Shown one piece after another: positions 987-56,709 of a stretch of 64,000 bases of DNA. How positions within the stretch are numbered: position 1 is the first letter of the stretch; each line of letters opens with the position of its first letter. Source of the DNA: Verrucomicrobiota bacterium (GTDB lineage Bacteria > Verrucomicrobiota > Verrucomicrobiia > Opitutales > Opitutaceae); assembly GCA_016222805.1 (NCBI GenBank), contig JACRQG010000006.1, positions 3,538 through 67,537 of the forward strand. Reading direction: 5' to 3'. A program made the translations under genes and the position numbers. The notes below the pieces were generated by a model that saw only the letters and a list, made by a program, of their open reading frames with translations, was not told where the DNA came from and ran no database searches.

Positions 987-3900
987 TCAGCGTTTGGCGG
1001 GGGTTGTGGGGGCAGGGCGCTCGGTGGCCTTGCGGAGGGTGGGTTGCGGGCGGCGCGCGGTGTCGGCGACCTCCTGGGTCAGCACCTCGATCGCCTTCTC
1101 CAACTGCACCTCCTGGCCCTTGGCCGACTGGCCGGGTTCCGGCCAGAGGAGGTGGTGGGGCACCGCGCCGTTGAGCTCCATGTCCTCGCCGGTGTCGCGC
1201 AGGAACCAACCGCGCGCGGGCAGCCGCAGCATGCCGACATCCATGATCTGCCGCGACCCCGTGCTGACGACGCCGCCGGCGGTGGGCACGCCGACGAGCT
1301 GGCCGCGACCCAGGGTCTTGACGGCGTGGCTGAAGATCTCGGCGTTGGAGAAACTGTTCTGGTTGCAGAGGACCACGATCGGCTTGGCCCACGTGGCGTA
1401 CACCTTGCGATCCTGCGGGTAACCGGGTCCGCCGCCGCGGGGCACGGCGATGGCGTGCACGGGCTGCGTCAATGCGGTGAGCAGGTGATCCGCCGTGCTG
1501 CCGCCGCCGTTGTCGCGGACGTCGATGATGAGCCCGTCCCGGCCGACGCCGGCCGCGTAGAGATCCTGCTCAAACTTCTGGAAGCTCTCCTGGTCCATCG
1601 CCCGGATGTGCAGGTAGCCGAGCTTGCCGCCGGAGCGGGCTTCGACGAGGGCGCGGTTGTCGCGAATCCACTTCGGATAAAGCAGCGAGCGGATCGCGGA
1701 ATAACGCGCGGCCTCGATGACCACGTCGCGCTCCTGGCCCTCGGCGTTGGCGACGCGCAGCTTCACATCGCGCCCGGAAGGTCCGCTGAGAAGGCGGGCA
1801 AGATCAGTCTCGGCATCCACTGCGGTGCCGTCGATCGCCACCACGGTCTCGCCGGCGGCGATGCCGTTGGGCGGGCGATCGGCCGGGCCGTCGGGGATGA
1901 CGTCGCGCACCTTCAGGCCGGGGCCGCGATGCGTGCGATCCCAGCGCAGGCCGAGATGGGCGGTGACGGGAGTCCAGGAATTGGGGGATTCGGACGAGGA
2001 CGAACTGCGCAGCGTGAAGCCGAGGTGCGAGCCGTTGAGTTCGCCGAGCATGAGGTTGATGACTGCCGCCAGCGTGGGGGCATCGGGGGTGGCGGCCATG
2101 TCGCGGTACTTGCGGCGCACTTCGTCCCAGTTGCGATTGCCGAGGCGGGAGTCGTACCACGAGTCGCGCATGGTGCGCCACGCGAGGTCGAACGCGGCCT
2201 GGTGTTTCGCCGCCGGGTCGAATTCGTGGGCGGCGCGGAAGGAGTAACGGGTCACGCGTCCACTGTCGGAGACGCTCGCGGGCACACTGCCGCCGCTGTC
2301 GCCGGAGGAGGAGATCGCGACCGGCGGGGTGGCGGGGGTCACGGGGGCCGGAGTCGGCGCCACCGGCGTGGCCGGGGTGGGAGCCACGGGCGTGGTCGGG
2401 CGCGGTCCGCGCGGCACAGCGTCCAGGGCCGCAAGGTCCTCCGGGGCCAGGCTGCGGCTGATTTCGGTGCGCCAGACGATCTGGTTGCCGGATTCGAGCC
2501 AGCGCCCCTGGGTGCCGGTTTCGGGGCAGAGCAGCTTCGGCCGCAGCTCCTCGGGGAACTCGACCGTGTAGGTGCCGCGGCGCCCGTCGACGCTGGCGGT
2601 GAAGGCGAGTTTCTTGGAGTCAGGGGACCAGAGCAGTTCGCGCTCCGTCGAGTTCGGGATCGAAATGCGGCGGACCCGCTCGTGGATGCGGTCGAAGTCG
2701 ATCTTCACCTCGGGGAGCTTCCTGCCCGCGGCGGCCGTGCGGGCCGGGGCCGGCGTGGCGGCGGGCTCCTTCGGCTCGGTTGTGGCGGTCGCGGTGGCCG
2801 GCGCGTCGGCGGGGGCGGCGTTGTCTGTCTTGGGGGCGACGGGGACCTTTTTCTCCGTGCGCGGCGAGTCCTTCTTGCGCGCCTTGGCCATCTTCTCGAC
2901 GGCCTTTTCCATCGTGCGCCCGCGCTTGGTGCGCTTGTCGTCCTCGGCCCGCAACTGCACGTAGTAGATGTCCACCTCGGTTTCGATACGGCGTCCGGTG
3001 AACGCAATCATGCGGCCATCGGGGGACCAGACGGGATTCGACTCGTTGTCGGGGTGGCGGGAGATGTTGACCCGCTCGCCGGTCCCGTCGGAGCGGAAGA
3101 TCCAGATGTCGCCATTGAAGTCGTTGTCGTAGAGGGAGGCGACCAACCACTTGCCGTCAGGCGACCAGTCGTACTGGGGCCGGTTCCAGGAGGGCAGCAC
3201 GCACTTGGCGGTCTTGGTCGCCACCTCGAAGGTGCAGAGGTCGCCATTGCCCCGGATGAAGGCGAGCAGGCTGCCGTCGGGGCTCCACCGGAGATCCTGC
3301 TCGGTTTCGGCATCATCGGTGAGACGGGTGAGCTTGAAGCGATCATTGCGCCACCAGTACTCGTCGGCGTTCTCGCGCTCGGCCTGCCAGAGATCGCTCT
3401 GGCCGTTCTGGTCGCTGACGAAGATGAGGCTCTTGCCGTCCGGGGCGAAGACCGGGGAGTGTTCGGATTCGGGCGTGCGAGTGACCTGGCGCGGTTCGCG
3501 GAGGATCGTGTCCATCACCCACAGGTCTCCGCCGGCGACGAACGCCACCTCGAGCCCGTCGTTGGAGAAGGCCACGTCGGTGACGTTCGTGAGCGTGCGG
3601 CGTTCGAGATTGGCGGCGGCCGTCTCGCTGTCGTCCCAGATTTCCAGCCGGACGGGTTCACGGCTGCGACCGGGTTCGAAACGGTAGAAGTCGAACAGGT
3701 GGCGGAAAACGATGGTCCGGCCGTCGCGCGAGACCGCCGGGGAGGTCACCGGGTCATCCGCGAACTTGGTGAGTTGGGTCTGCCTGGCGTTCGCGAGTTC
3801 GTATTCCCAGAGGTTCACCGAGCCGCTGCGGCCGCTGGTGAAATAGAAGCCCTTGCCGTCCGGGCGCCACCGCGGAAACCGGGCGCTGGTGTCCTCCGCG

Positions 3901-4568
3901 ATCAGCTTGGTGAAGATGCCGGTGACGGAGTCGTACAGCCAGATCTGGCTCGCCTGCGAGCCGCGGTAGCCCTTGCGGGTGGCTTGTTCGCCCTCGCGGG
4001 TGAAGAGGAGGCGCTTGCCGTCGGGGGAGAGGTCGCCGGTGCGGCCGTAGTCGTCAAAGACGAGGTGCTCACCGACCGGAGCCTTGACCGGCACGCGGAA
4101 GAAGCGCTGGCCCGAGCGCAGGTAATACGAGAAGTCCCGATCGGCGTTGACGAGCAGGGCGGAACCATCGGGGTACCAGCCGTCGAGGACATAGCCTTCG
4201 GTGTGGGAGGTGAGTCGCTGCGGCACGCCGCCAGCCGCCGGCAGGAGAAAGATCTGCGGTCCCGCCTCGCGATCGCTCAGGAAGGCGATCTGGGTGCCGT
4301 CGGGTGAAAACGAGGGCGAGGTGTCGCGCCCCGGGTGGCGGGTGAGCGGCCGTGCCGTGCCGCCGGTGCTTGGCACCGACCAAAGATCGCCGAACCACGA
4401 AAACACGAGGGTCTTGCCGTCGGGGGATAGCGCCGGGTCCTGGGCCATCCGGATGGGCGTGCGGGCCAGAGCGACGGTCGCGACCGGAAGGCCGAGGCCG
4501 AGAAGGAAGAGCGGGCGCAGGCGGAGCCTGGGTTGCCGGGGGGAGGCGAGCTGGGGGAGGAAGCGCAT
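987..4568 (-). CDS. Tricorn-like S41 family serine protease with N-terminal beta-propeller
   Basis: Secreted or periplasmic protease of 1193 residues, predicted to degrade peptides through a tricorn-type serine active site. The start is set at the ATG before a signal peptide (MRFLPQLASPR..., then a leucine-rich core and AxA-like VALA site); the frame stays open 90 codons further upstream, but that stretch looks non-coding. Residues ~40-650 carry many SPDGK/SPDGT propeller motifs typical of TolB/DPP-IV-like blades. Two Ala/Pro/Thr-rich linkers separate them from a C1 region, a PDZ domain (LKVRDVIPDGPADRPPNG) and a C-terminal S41 core. The nucleophile is probably Ser1074 in NSFSNAE, with Glu1077 close by, as in tricorn proteases. 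Length matches the tricorn family. Divergent from the VPDSG gene, with a 460-base gap between. Confidence 0.88.
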   Translation of the reverse strand: MRFLPQLASPRQPRLRLRPLFLLGLGLPVATVALARTPIRMAQDPALSPDGKTLVFSWFGDLWSVPSTGGTARPLTRHPGRDTSPSFSPDGTQIAFLSDREAGPQIFLLPAAGGVPQRLTSHTEGYVLDGWYPDGSALLVNADRDFSYYLRSGQRFFRVPVKAPVGEHLVFDDYGRTGDLSPDGKRLLFTREGEQATRKGYRGSQASQIWLYDSVTGIFTKLIAEDTSARFPRWRPDGKGFYFTSGRSGSVNLWEYELANARQTQLTKFADDPVTSPAVSRDGRTIVFRHLFDFYRFEPGRSREPVRLEIWDDSETAAANLERRTLTNVTDVAFSNDGLEVAFVAGGDLWVMDTILREPRQVTRTPESEHSPVFAPDGKSLIFVSDQNGQSDLWQAERENADEYWWRNDRFKLTRLTDDAETEQDLRWSPDGSLLAFIRGNGDLCTFEVATKTAKCVLPSWNRPQYDWSPDGKWLVASLYDNDFNGDIWIFRSDGTGERVNISRHPDNESNPVWSPDGRMIAFTGRRIETEVDIYYVQLRAEDDKRTKRGRTMEKAVEKMAKARKKDSPRTEKKVPVAPKTDNAAPADAPATATATTEPKEPAATPAPARTAAAGRKLPEVKIDFDRIHERVRRISIPNSTERELLWSPDSKKLAFTASVDGRRGTYTVEFPEELRPKLLCPETGTQGRWLESGNQIVWRTEISRSLAPEDLAALDAVPRGPRPTTPVAPTPATPVAPTPAPVTPATPPVAISSSGDSGGSVPASVSDSGRVTRYSFRAAHEFDPAAKHQAAFDLAWRTMRDSWYDSRLGNRNWDEVRRKYRDMAATPDAPTLAAVINLMLGELNGSHLGFTLRSSSSSESPNSWTPVTAHLGLRWDRTHRGPGLKVRDVIPDGPADRPPNGIAAGETVVAIDGTAVDAETDLARLLSGPSGRDVKLRVANAEGQERDVVIEAARYSAIRSLLYPKWIRDNRALVEARSGGKLGYLHIRAMDQESFQKFEQDLYAAGVGRDGLIIDVRDNGGGSTADHLLTALTQPVHAIAVPRGGGPGYPQDRKVYATWAKPIVVLCNQNSFSNAEIFSHAVKTLGRGQLVGVPTAGGVVSTGSRQIMDVGMLRLPARGWFLRDTGEDMELNGAVPHHLLWPEPGQSAKGQEVQLEKAIEVLTQEVADTARRPQPTLRKATERPAPTTPAKR

Positions 4569-5028
4569 GGCGCGAAGGGCGAATGGCCGCTCAGCCCAGC
4601 GAAACGCCGGCCTGATGTCGATGCAGCTTGCGGGGGGGGTGGAGGAGTCGCGCCGGTGGTCAGCGCCGGGAGGCGCGTGATTCAGCGTGAGTTCGGATCT
4701 CATCTGGCTAGAAGCTCGCGGCCGTTGCCGATCAACTTCACGAGGTGTTTCGCGAAAGAGGAGCGGCCCTGGTCCTGCGGATCCCGACCTCGAACTGCGG
4801 GGACTTTGTTCGGAAAACCCGACGGAAAACGTCGGCATACCTTACATTCGGCGCCAGTCGCGAGAGCCGTCATCCGAATGGTCGGGGAAAAGAAAACCCC
4901 CGAGGCTTTGCTTGGCATCGAGCTACAGGGAGCTGCCGGGGCAGCATCATGAGTTGGCATGTGGCATGCGGCCTTTTCTGGGCATCCGGCCGGTTCTTTC
5001 GGGTTCGTCGTTCCTTTTTCGCGTCACC
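4569..5028. other. Intergenic region between divergent protease and VPDSG genes
   Basis: 460 bases without a supported gene. The open frames crossing it have no recognisable start or protein character. The right part holds the sigma-54-type element at 4955-4970; no clear promoter for the protease was found. Confidence 0.5.
4955..4970 (+). promoter_or_regulatory. Candidate sigma-54 (-24/-12) promoter of VPDSG gene
   Basis: TGGCATGTGGCATGCG matches the sigma-54 consensus TGGCAYG-N4-TTGCW closely: GG and GC lie exactly 12 bases apart, and TGGCA, the G of CG, and TGC are conserved. Transcription would start near 4981, leaving a leader of about 48 bases before the ATG at 5029. The other VPDSG gene in this window has a similarly spaced element. 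Confidence 0.55.
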
Positions 5029-5781
5029 ATGAAAGCAAACATCGCTCGCCTGCTACTCGCAGCCACCGTCTTGGGGGCGGTTTCCCCCGCTAATGCGGGG
5101 TTCGTCAATGGGGGGTTTGAAGATGGCACGTTCAACGGTTGGACCACCGGCCGGGGCACATGGAATTCCGGCATGGGTCTGGGACTTCCGCTGGATCCCT
5201 CCCTCTACCTGCCGTCGGGTGCCCGGTATCAAGGTACGGCCACGCAGAGCGCCATCGTGGGAGTCGGCCTGGATCCCATTACCGGGGTCAGCACCACCTA
5301 CAATGGCAGCTACGCTGCGCGAGTTAACAACAGCATCAACGACTACACCGTCAATGTGATCAGCCAGAAGGTGCTGAATTACTCCGGCTCGACGATAAAC
5401 TTCGAGTGGTCGGCGGTGCTCGAAGACTCACACGGCCTCAACGATTCGGACCATTTTTCGATCACGCTGACGGACAACACGACGAACTCGTTGCTCTACA
5501 ACGTGGCGATCAGCTCAGCGAGTTTTCCCGGGTACTTCAGTCAGGTGGGGGTCTGGAACTACAGTGGCTGGCAGGTTCAGACGATCGCTGTTACGTCCGG
5601 GCATGATTACACCCTGACGCTGCTCGCCGCCGACTGCCCCTACGGCGGTCACGCGGGATATGTCTATCTGGATGGCTTTGCTGACGTGATCGTCCCGCAA
5701 GGTGTCCCAGACCGAGGCATGGTGGCGGCGATGTTGCTGTCGGCGTGCGCCGGCCTCCTGGCCTTTCGCCGGCGCGTCTGA
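5029..5781 (+). CDS. VPDSG-CTERM sorted secreted protein
   Basis: 250-residue exported protein. The start ATG is chosen because it opens a clean signal peptide (MKANIARLLLAATVLG..., cleavage after PANA). The mature part begins GFVNGGFEDGTFNGWT, a common opening of PEP-CTERM-type proteins with a carbohydrate-binding-like jelly roll. The C-terminus has VPDRG, then a hydrophobic segment (VAAMLLSACAGLLAF) and the basic end RRRV. This is the tripartite layout of the VPDSG-CTERM signal known from Verrucomicrobia, processed by an exosortase-type enzyme, with the usual Ser replaced by Arg. No exosortase lies in the window. A sigma-54-type promoter precedes it and an intrinsic terminator follows. Confidence 0.8.
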   Translation: MKANIARLLLAATVLGAVSPANAGFVNGGFEDGTFNGWTTGRGTWNSGMGLGLPLDPSLYLPSGARYQGTATQSAIVGVGLDPITGVSTTYNGSYAARVNNSINDYTVNVISQKVLNYSGSTINFEWSAVLEDSHGLNDSDHFSITLTDNTTNSLLYNVAISSASFPGYFSQVGVWNYSGWQVQTIAVTSGHDYTLTLLAADCPYGGHAGYVYLDGFADVIVPQGVPDRGMVAAMLLSACAGLLAFRRRV

Positions 5782-55686: not shown

Positions 55687-56277
55687 TCAGCTTTTGCGCT
55701 TGGCGGTGAGGCTGCCGAAGCGGGCAAGCAGGAGGGACGCCAAGCCGGCCAGGATAAAGGTCGAGCTGCTGTCGGAAACGCCGTTCACGACCTCGGCCTG
55801 CAGGGTGAAGACCCCGTTCATGGAAGGCGAAAGGGGGCTCCATTCCGCGGTCGGACTCGGGGCGGGCACCCACGTGAACTGATAGTCGCCGGCGGAGAGT
55901 CCGGAGAACGTCACCCCCTGCCAGTGGGTGGGCGCCAAGCTTCCAAGACTGGTGGGTGAACTGACCAAGGGTCCGCCGTAGTTGCTTCCGTCGACGAAGA
56001 AGTTGGTGACACCGTCAACCAAGCCGAGGGGCTTGGCATTCACGAGCATATTGAAAGCGAGGGTCGTCGAGGCATAGGGGTTTCCGTTTACCCCAACCAG
56101 GTTCATGCTGCCCTCGGTGTGGTGCCCGCCATGATTGTAGGTGCCGAGCCAGATGCTGACGGAGCCGGGGGTGCCGGCGTTTTCGTAGCCGATCGAAGTG
56201 GCATGGCCGAAGACCTTGCCCATGCTCAGCGAGAACAAGGCGAGCACGGCAAGTGCGCGGAGAGATTTGGTGATCAT
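55687..56277 (-). CDS. VPDSG-type C-terminally sorted secreted protein (variant VSDSSST)
   Basis: 196 residues. Signal peptide MITKSLRALAVLALFSLSMG, cleavage near VFGHA. The mature region is unrecognised, rich in Gly/Ser/Asn/His (ATSIGYENAGTPGSVSIW, LGTYNHGGHH). The C-terminus has VSDSSSTF, a hydrophobic helix (ILAGLASLLLARF) and the basic end TAKRKS. This is the VPDSG-CTERM layout with Pro and Gly replaced, so recognition by the exosortase is plausible but less certain than for the gene at 5029. A sigma-54-type element precedes it and a strong terminator follows. Confidence 0.75.
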   Translation of the reverse strand: MITKSLRALAVLALFSLSMGKVFGHATSIGYENAGTPGSVSIWLGTYNHGGHHTEGSMNLVGVNGNPYASTTLAFNMLVNAKPLGLVDGVTNFFVDGSNYGGPLVSSPTSLGSLAPTHWQGVTFSGLSAGDYQFTWVPAPSPTAEWSPLSPSMNGVFTLQAEVVNGVSDSSSTFILAGLASLLLARFGSLTAKRKS

Positions 56278-56317
56278 AAATTATGGTAGGGTGATGAGTT
56301 GAGGGACGAAGGTGCGT

Positions 56318-56333
56318 AGCACTACTCATGCCT
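56318..56333 (-). promoter_or_regulatory. Candidate sigma-54 (-24/-12) promoter of second VPDSG-type gene
   Basis: On the minus strand AGGCATGAGTAGTGCT: GG and GC are exactly 12 bases apart, with GGCA, G and TGCT matching TGGCAYG-N4-TTGCW. Start would fall near 56307, giving a ~30-base leader. It shares GGCATG-N5-TGC with the 4955 element. Confidence 0.5.
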
Positions 56334-56406
56334 CGAATAAGAAAAGCGAAGATATTTCATAATTAATTGATAGTAAATTGATTAAAATCTCACCTGCCCG
56401 CTATTG

Positions 56407-56423
56407 TCGGGTTCGAGCCCCGG
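56407..56423 (+). other. tRNA T-arm-like fragment
   Basis: TCGGG-TTCGAGC-CCCGG: a 5 bp stem (one wobble) with a loop fitting TTCRANY. No matching acceptor, D- or anticodon arm and no CCA were found, so it is not an intact tRNA. It may be a relic or an attachment-site remnant, or chance. Confidence 0.3.
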
Positions 56424-56483
56424 TAAATCTGTAAAGATAACGCAGATTTTGACCACTCATCATCGCGAACTAATATATTGTAA

Positions 56484-56502
56484 ATAATTGTTAAACAATT
56501 AT
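56484..56502. promoter_or_regulatory. Perfect AT-rich dyad, possible operator
   Basis: ATAATTGTT-A-AACAATTAT, 9 bp arms about a single base, in the AT-rich island between the divergent VPDSG-type and MarC genes. A dimeric regulator site is possible. Confidence 0.35.
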
Positions 56503-56709
56503 ATGTGATAATCTGTGACTCCGTGTAAGAGATCCCGACATTCTGAAGCCGTAGGCGGGGCTGACCTTGGAGAGGCTGGCATGGGGTTGCTTGCGCGCGT
56601 CGGGATTGTGTGCGTAAAGCAGGTCTAAGGGAGCAACGGCAGCGGTGAAGTTGCGGCTGAGCGTGGCTTGCGGTCCTTGGCGGGGAGTTGCTTATTCTCG
56701 GGAGAGACA

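Follow-up and report, generated by a model that had tools for sequence, protein, structure and literature searches.

Predicted sigma-54 promoters with an upstream activator box point to a probable PrsK-PrsR-RpoN regulon of VPDSG-type surface-protein genes in a Verrucomicrobiota genome

The control logic considered here has been described so far mainly in Proteobacteria. Haft et al. (2006; PMC1569441) reported a PEP-CTERM box arrangement in which a 17-nt motif 1, ending in TTTACA, is followed downstream by a -24/-12 motif 2. Motif 1 can occur in repeated copies and was tied to PrsR by phylogenetic profile, and in that account the motifs were found only in Proteobacteria among the species studied. 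The proteobacterial spacer between motif 1 and motif 2 was given as 62.8 +/- 10.6 bp (range 32-92), with motif limits that may differ by a few bases from those used here. In Aquincola tertiaricarbonis, pepA has a -24/-12 promoter (TGGCAC / CTGCTT) with a mapped start, and its transcription is lost in an rpoN1 mutant (PMC9850573).

We analysed a 64-kb stretch of DNA from a Verrucomicrobiota genome (the window), in which the first-pass annotation had drawn attention to a minus-strand element at 56318-56333 (AGGCATGAGTAGTGCT) that shares GGCATG-N5-TGC and the GG/GC spacing of -24/-12 elements with a plus-strand site at 4955-4970 (TGGCATGTGGCATGCG). Both sequences were confirmed. The first base of the element at 56318-56333 is A where the sigma-54 consensus has T, and GG and GC stand at -24/-12 spacing in a TGGCAC-like context. 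Transcription is predicted to start near 56307 from this element and near 4981 from its sister; the elements themselves begin 56 bp before the ATG at 56277 and 74 bp before that at 5029. The gene at 55687-56277 (minus strand) encodes a protein of 196 aa with a signal-peptide-like start and a tail running from VSDSSSTFILAGLASLLLARF to RKS, and the gene at 5029-5781 (plus strand) encodes a protein of 250 aa, also with a signal-peptide-like start, with the tail VPDRGMVAAMLLSACAGLLAFRRRV. A large ORF at 987-4838 (minus strand) with tricorn-like protease domains (PD40, Peptidase_S41 and PDZ) is divergent from the 5029 gene.

It had been argued that two of two VPDSG-type genes in the window carry the element, and that this speaks for a regulon. 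The count stands under a loose definition of the tail: VPDRG (56277 gene) and VSDSSS (5029 gene) resemble the VPDSG type, and a regex scan of the window's frames for such tails returned these two genes and one unconvincing frame. Neither protein matched the curated model TIGR03778 (VPDSG-CTERM) at E<=1, and profile searches with NCBIfam and Pfam gave no match for either. Evidence from the whole genome, given below, does support a regulon, but two sites sharing a motif were too weak a basis alone. GGCATG-N5-TGC occurs twice in the window against a shuffle mean of 0.93, with two or more occurrences in 23 of 100 shuffles, and a loose sigma-54 consensus (at most 3 mismatches) was not enriched there (81 seen, 97.8 expected). 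Across the genome TGGCAYG-N5-TGC had 32 matches, fewer than the 81 of its reversed control, and 7 of the 30 matches examined precede sorting-tail genes, read by eye. We rejected this pattern as a definition of the regulon, since it excludes too much and also turns up too often in coding DNA. The significance of the two elements thus lies in their position and in a second box, not in the motif count of the window. Neither this activator box nor PrsK/PrsR nor the proteobacterial precedent had been noticed in the first-pass annotation.

The box came to notice by eye, once TTACA-like words had been marked in 160-base upstream regions of 19 candidate elements and GTCGG-N6-TTAC(A/G) was found to recur. 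The form was refined to GTCGG-N5-YTTAC(A/G), the base preceding TTAC, left free in the search, being C or T in all 30 box promoters. The box pattern matched 50 times in the genome and its reversal 21 times. A sigma-54 candidate (score >=11.7, with a background of 7% in stretches of this search length) was found 80-135 bp downstream of 26 of the 31 boxes ending in A and of 4 of the 19 ending in G. By eye, 21 of the 26 A-ending box promoters precede genes with a clear P[D/E]-hydrophobic-basic sorting tail, one of which (C37:22574) is masked over an internal stretch; the tail is ambiguous in three (C31:4119, C34:140766 and C34:236803) and absent in two (C2:13366 and C34:31838). All four G-ending boxes with a candidate precede tail genes, as do two more boxes with no candidate at 80-135 bp, C5:60061 (the box of the 56277 gene) and C14:184818. 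No sorting-tail gene was present among the frames inspected for 18 of the 50 matches, which is expected given the 21 matches of the reversed control. Boxes found only through the search show the same architecture (for example C1:70229, C25:286889, C37:64180, C46:82424, C47:2554, C50:621258 and C51:578005). In this two-part promoter a box is followed by a -24/-12 element, usually 85-117 bp downstream, and the arrangement recurs ahead of genes whose products combine a signal peptide with a VPDSG-type tail. A genome-wide motif search was among the checks proposed by the first-pass annotation, and its outcome supports a regulon comprising some 30 promoters.

The window has only two exact boxes, and each of the two genes is preceded by one. 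The box GTCGGCATACCTTACA at 4831-4846 (plus strand) is separated by 108 bp from the element at 4955, and the box GTCGGGATCTCTTACA at 56524-56539 (minus strand) lies 190 bp upstream of the element at 56318-56333, a spacer outside the 85-131 bp range of the other 30 box promoters. A degenerate box-like copy, CTGCGTTATCTTTACA at 56430-56445 (minus strand), was tentatively spotted by eye; it has at least two mismatches, and its spacer would be 96 bp. This arrangement supports the view that the element at 56318-56333 belongs to the predicted regulon as a member with an unusually long spacer.

The 30 spacers of the source genome fell at 85-88 (5), 96-99 (6), 106-113 (14), 115-117 (4) and 131 bp (1), with a median of 107.5. 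A period of 10.5 bp was detected in them (R 0.51; p 0.0006-0.001 vs jitter, 0.002 with the period searched), and 13 spacers from relatives, searched over 60-140 bp, gave R 0.62 (p 0.006, on small numbers) with a phase of 4.3 bp vs 2.8 bp in the source genome. The spacing suggests that box and promoter keep to one face of the helix, near 10.5-bp steps, and the spacer lengths hint at a helical-phase constraint on looping by PrsR, a mechanical point that is testable. Eight sites from Proteobacteria in the broad sense, unselected by spacing, had spacers of 52-116 bp, seven of them at 52-80.

We compared the two classes of tagged genes in the source genome by coordinates alone. An exact box preceded 13 of 20 TIGR03778 matches (E<=1; the 20 include at least two proteins that are not of the VPDSG kind) vs 2 of 21 TIGR02595 matches (individually above cut-off; C24 occurs in both lists), with a Fisher p of 0.0003. 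Eight of the 13 boxed TIGR03778 genes came from the set in which the box was first noticed, and without them the counts were 5 of 12 vs 2 of 21 (p 0.07). The two boxed TIGR02595 exceptions end in VPEGA and VPESG tails, respectively, not PEP. By these counts PEP-CTERM (TIGR02595) genes do not appear to be the targets of the putative box regulon in this genome.

The source genome, a 7.9-Mb draft in 51 contigs that is 95.6% complete, was searched with profiles for the machinery such promoters would require. Absence of rpoN had been named as grounds against a sigma-54 reading; the genome has a single RpoN (TIGR02395, 413.4 bits; cut-off 277.35). The sigma-54 activator domain had 11 matches, nine with E below 1e-20. 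One protein, alone among nine matches to the 'PEP-CTERM-box response regulator' model, scored above cut-off as PrsR (611 bits; cut-off 502.6), and it is adjoined by PrsK (395.5 bits; cut-off 300). Just downstream of prsR stands a Fur-family-like gene with a -24/-12-like site and a one-mismatch box (GTCAG...TTACA) upstream (L068:8274-8288; G000:C35:38273), and this gene is perhaps a further member of the putative regulon. XrtC was not recognisable in the draft, the best TIGR04151 match reaching 48.2 bits (cut-off 300); three other exosortases are present.

PrsR was found above cut-off in 11 of 387 genomes of the phylum, and the only genome of the same genus did not pass, so recent horizontal transfer was considered. 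In a tree that took in four PrsR from other phyla, the source PrsR clustered with PrsR of its own family and with that of a named Akkermansiaceae contig (support 100/96), and this grouping argues for inheritance with losses rather than recent transfer.

A strict composite pattern of box and element matched 17 times in the source genome (reversed control, 0), and it occurred in 5 of the 10 other PrsR-positive genomes vs 25 of 376 PrsR-negative ones (p 0.0004). Since the reversed control matched in 34 genomes (counted from the table), single composite matches elsewhere are background. Among 25 hand-chosen genomes, TIGR03778 was above cut-off in 11 of 11 PrsR-positive genomes vs 2 of 14 others, and these two (G276 and G310) are congeners of PrsR-positive genomes. 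An XrtC-like exosortase (173-304 bits, one above the cut-off of 300) was present in all 10 other PrsR-positive genomes and in G276, and the remaining chosen genomes, the source included, scored at most 70 bits. In the neighbourhoods inspected in relatives, prsK-prsR lies by VPDSG-type genes, XrtC-like exosortases, PrsT-like proteins (one above cut-off, one just below) and an export-like gene below cut-off. Among 41 VPDSG-type genes of relatives picked by script, 25 had a sigma-54 score >=12.5 within 230 bp and 20 had a box at no more than one mismatch. In the PrsR-positive genome G223 there are 38 VPDSG matches, whose tails are nearly identical and many of which sit in short frames; of the 10 G223 rows among those 41 genes only one had a box, and these tags apparently represent an expanded, unregulated family.

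Named genomes were also scanned, blind to proteins, for box-(85-115)-TGGCAYG-N5-TGC; this returned at least 118 stretches, and 80 loci with 84 sites were among the matches listed. These listed matches were mostly from Proteobacteria, with some from Nitrospirota, Planctomycetota and Gemmatimonadetes and five loci from Verrucomicrobia; at the latter, all six sites listed lie 48-88 bp before VPDSG/VPDGG-type genes, one of them TPDGG. The contigs from Nitrospirota, Planctomycetota and Gemmatimonadetes that carry the composite promoter are L228, L181, L188, L220, L192, L193 and L245, and some of the single occurrences may be due to chance.

Together, the data support a PrsK-PrsR-RpoN regulon, the predicted targets being surface proteins of the VPDSG type. 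PrsK would sense an envelope or surface cue and phosphorylate PrsR, which would bind the box; the intervening DNA would loop, and PrsR, consuming ATP, would drive opening of the RpoN-polymerase complex at the -24/-12 element. After export the products would have their tails cut by an exosortase and would be placed at the surface or in exopolysaccharide. On the sequence evidence, the element at 56318-56333 very probably represents a genuine sigma-54 promoter among some 30 of its kind in the genome, and we think it quite likely that it drives the gene at 55687-56277 as its -24/-12 promoter and is part of this regulon.

The regulon could be real and the element at 56318 nevertheless a chance match, with the 56277 gene using another promoter in its A+T-rich upstream region. 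The element begins with A and has a spacer of 190 bp, the tail of its gene matches weakly, and its score of 12.7 has a chance of about 0.05 of arising somewhere in 235 background positions. Against this, an exact box lies upstream on the correct strand, the distance of 56 bp to the ATG agrees with other promoters, and no sigma-70-like site was found on the strand of the gene within 56200-56700. Relatives also have VPDSG-type genes with boxes 157-201 bp from a good element (L386, L389, L393 and L394), and we regard a chance match as unlikely.

A somewhat smaller probability is given to a sigma-54 regulon driven by an activator of this genome other than PrsR. Binding of the box by PrsR is a prediction, and the genome offers the further activator-domain proteins noted above; however, only one protein exceeds the PrsR cut-off, the presence of PrsR tracks the VPDSG signals across the 25 chosen genomes, and the box agrees with the motif that Haft et al. 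linked to PrsR through phylogenetic profiling (PMC1569441). A third possibility, that a G+C-rich genome produced both elements by coincidence and no regulon exists, would accord with the unremarkable window statistics and with the lack of genomic enrichment of TGGCAYG-N5-TGC, but the way in which box, element and gene class occur together speaks strongly against it, and we consider it very improbable.

With PrsR-driven control as the preferred reading, a broader interpretation can be put forward tentatively, and we hold it to be possible rather than probable. PrsK/PrsR/RpoN, an exosortase and tagged surface proteins may form an old module shared across phyla, with a longer, helically phased spacing in Verrucomicrobiota; the lineage of the window may have lost XrtC and kept the regulon, whose tags, roughly 30 in number, would have drifted towards what a different exosortase accepts. 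A single genome would then hold two tag systems, the VPDSG type under sigma-54 and PEP-CTERM not. To our knowledge, no function is known for most exosortase substrates, which are difficult to sort into groups. The promoter code lists one surface-protein programme of a Verrucomicrobiota genome and points out its likely sensor and activator; degenerate members are included, among them both window genes, which escape the tag model. The code would also extend a control system found in 2006 only among Proteobacteria of the species studied (PMC1569441).

A literature search found no paper naming 'VPDSG', nor 'exosortase' together with 'XrtC', and a search by title found no verrucomicrobial sigma-54/exosortase regulon, which is not proof of absence. 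With the VPDSG-CTERM/XrtC system (TIGR03778, TIGR04151) the present case shares the tail type of many regulon genes, and several relatives have XrtC-like genes near prsK-prsR; in contrast, XrtC-like matches in the source genome reach 48.2 bits at most and both window genes fail TIGR03778. Aquincola pepA is likewise a sorting-tag gene with a -24/-12 promoter, although that case is experimental and concerns one PEP-CTERM gene of a betaproteobacterium, whereas ours is known from sequence. The closest counterpart is the PEP-CTERM box regulon. Common to both are a TTTACA-ending motif 1 upstream of a -24/-12 element (compared by its description), PrsR and PrsK, here above curated cut-offs and adjacent, and targets that encode exported proteins with a C-terminal sorting tag. 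Unlike the proteobacterial regulon, which targets PEP-CTERM genes, the boxes of this Verrucomicrobiota genome precede VPDSG-type genes. Spacers of 32-92 bp there compare with 85-131 bp here, where only 5 of 30 lie at 85-88 and the other 25 at 96-131, and the two window spacers of 108 and 190 bp are both beyond the proteobacterial range. The putative regulon of the source genome thus fits the PEP-CTERM box regulon by its regulator and its box, but not by its spacer and its target class.
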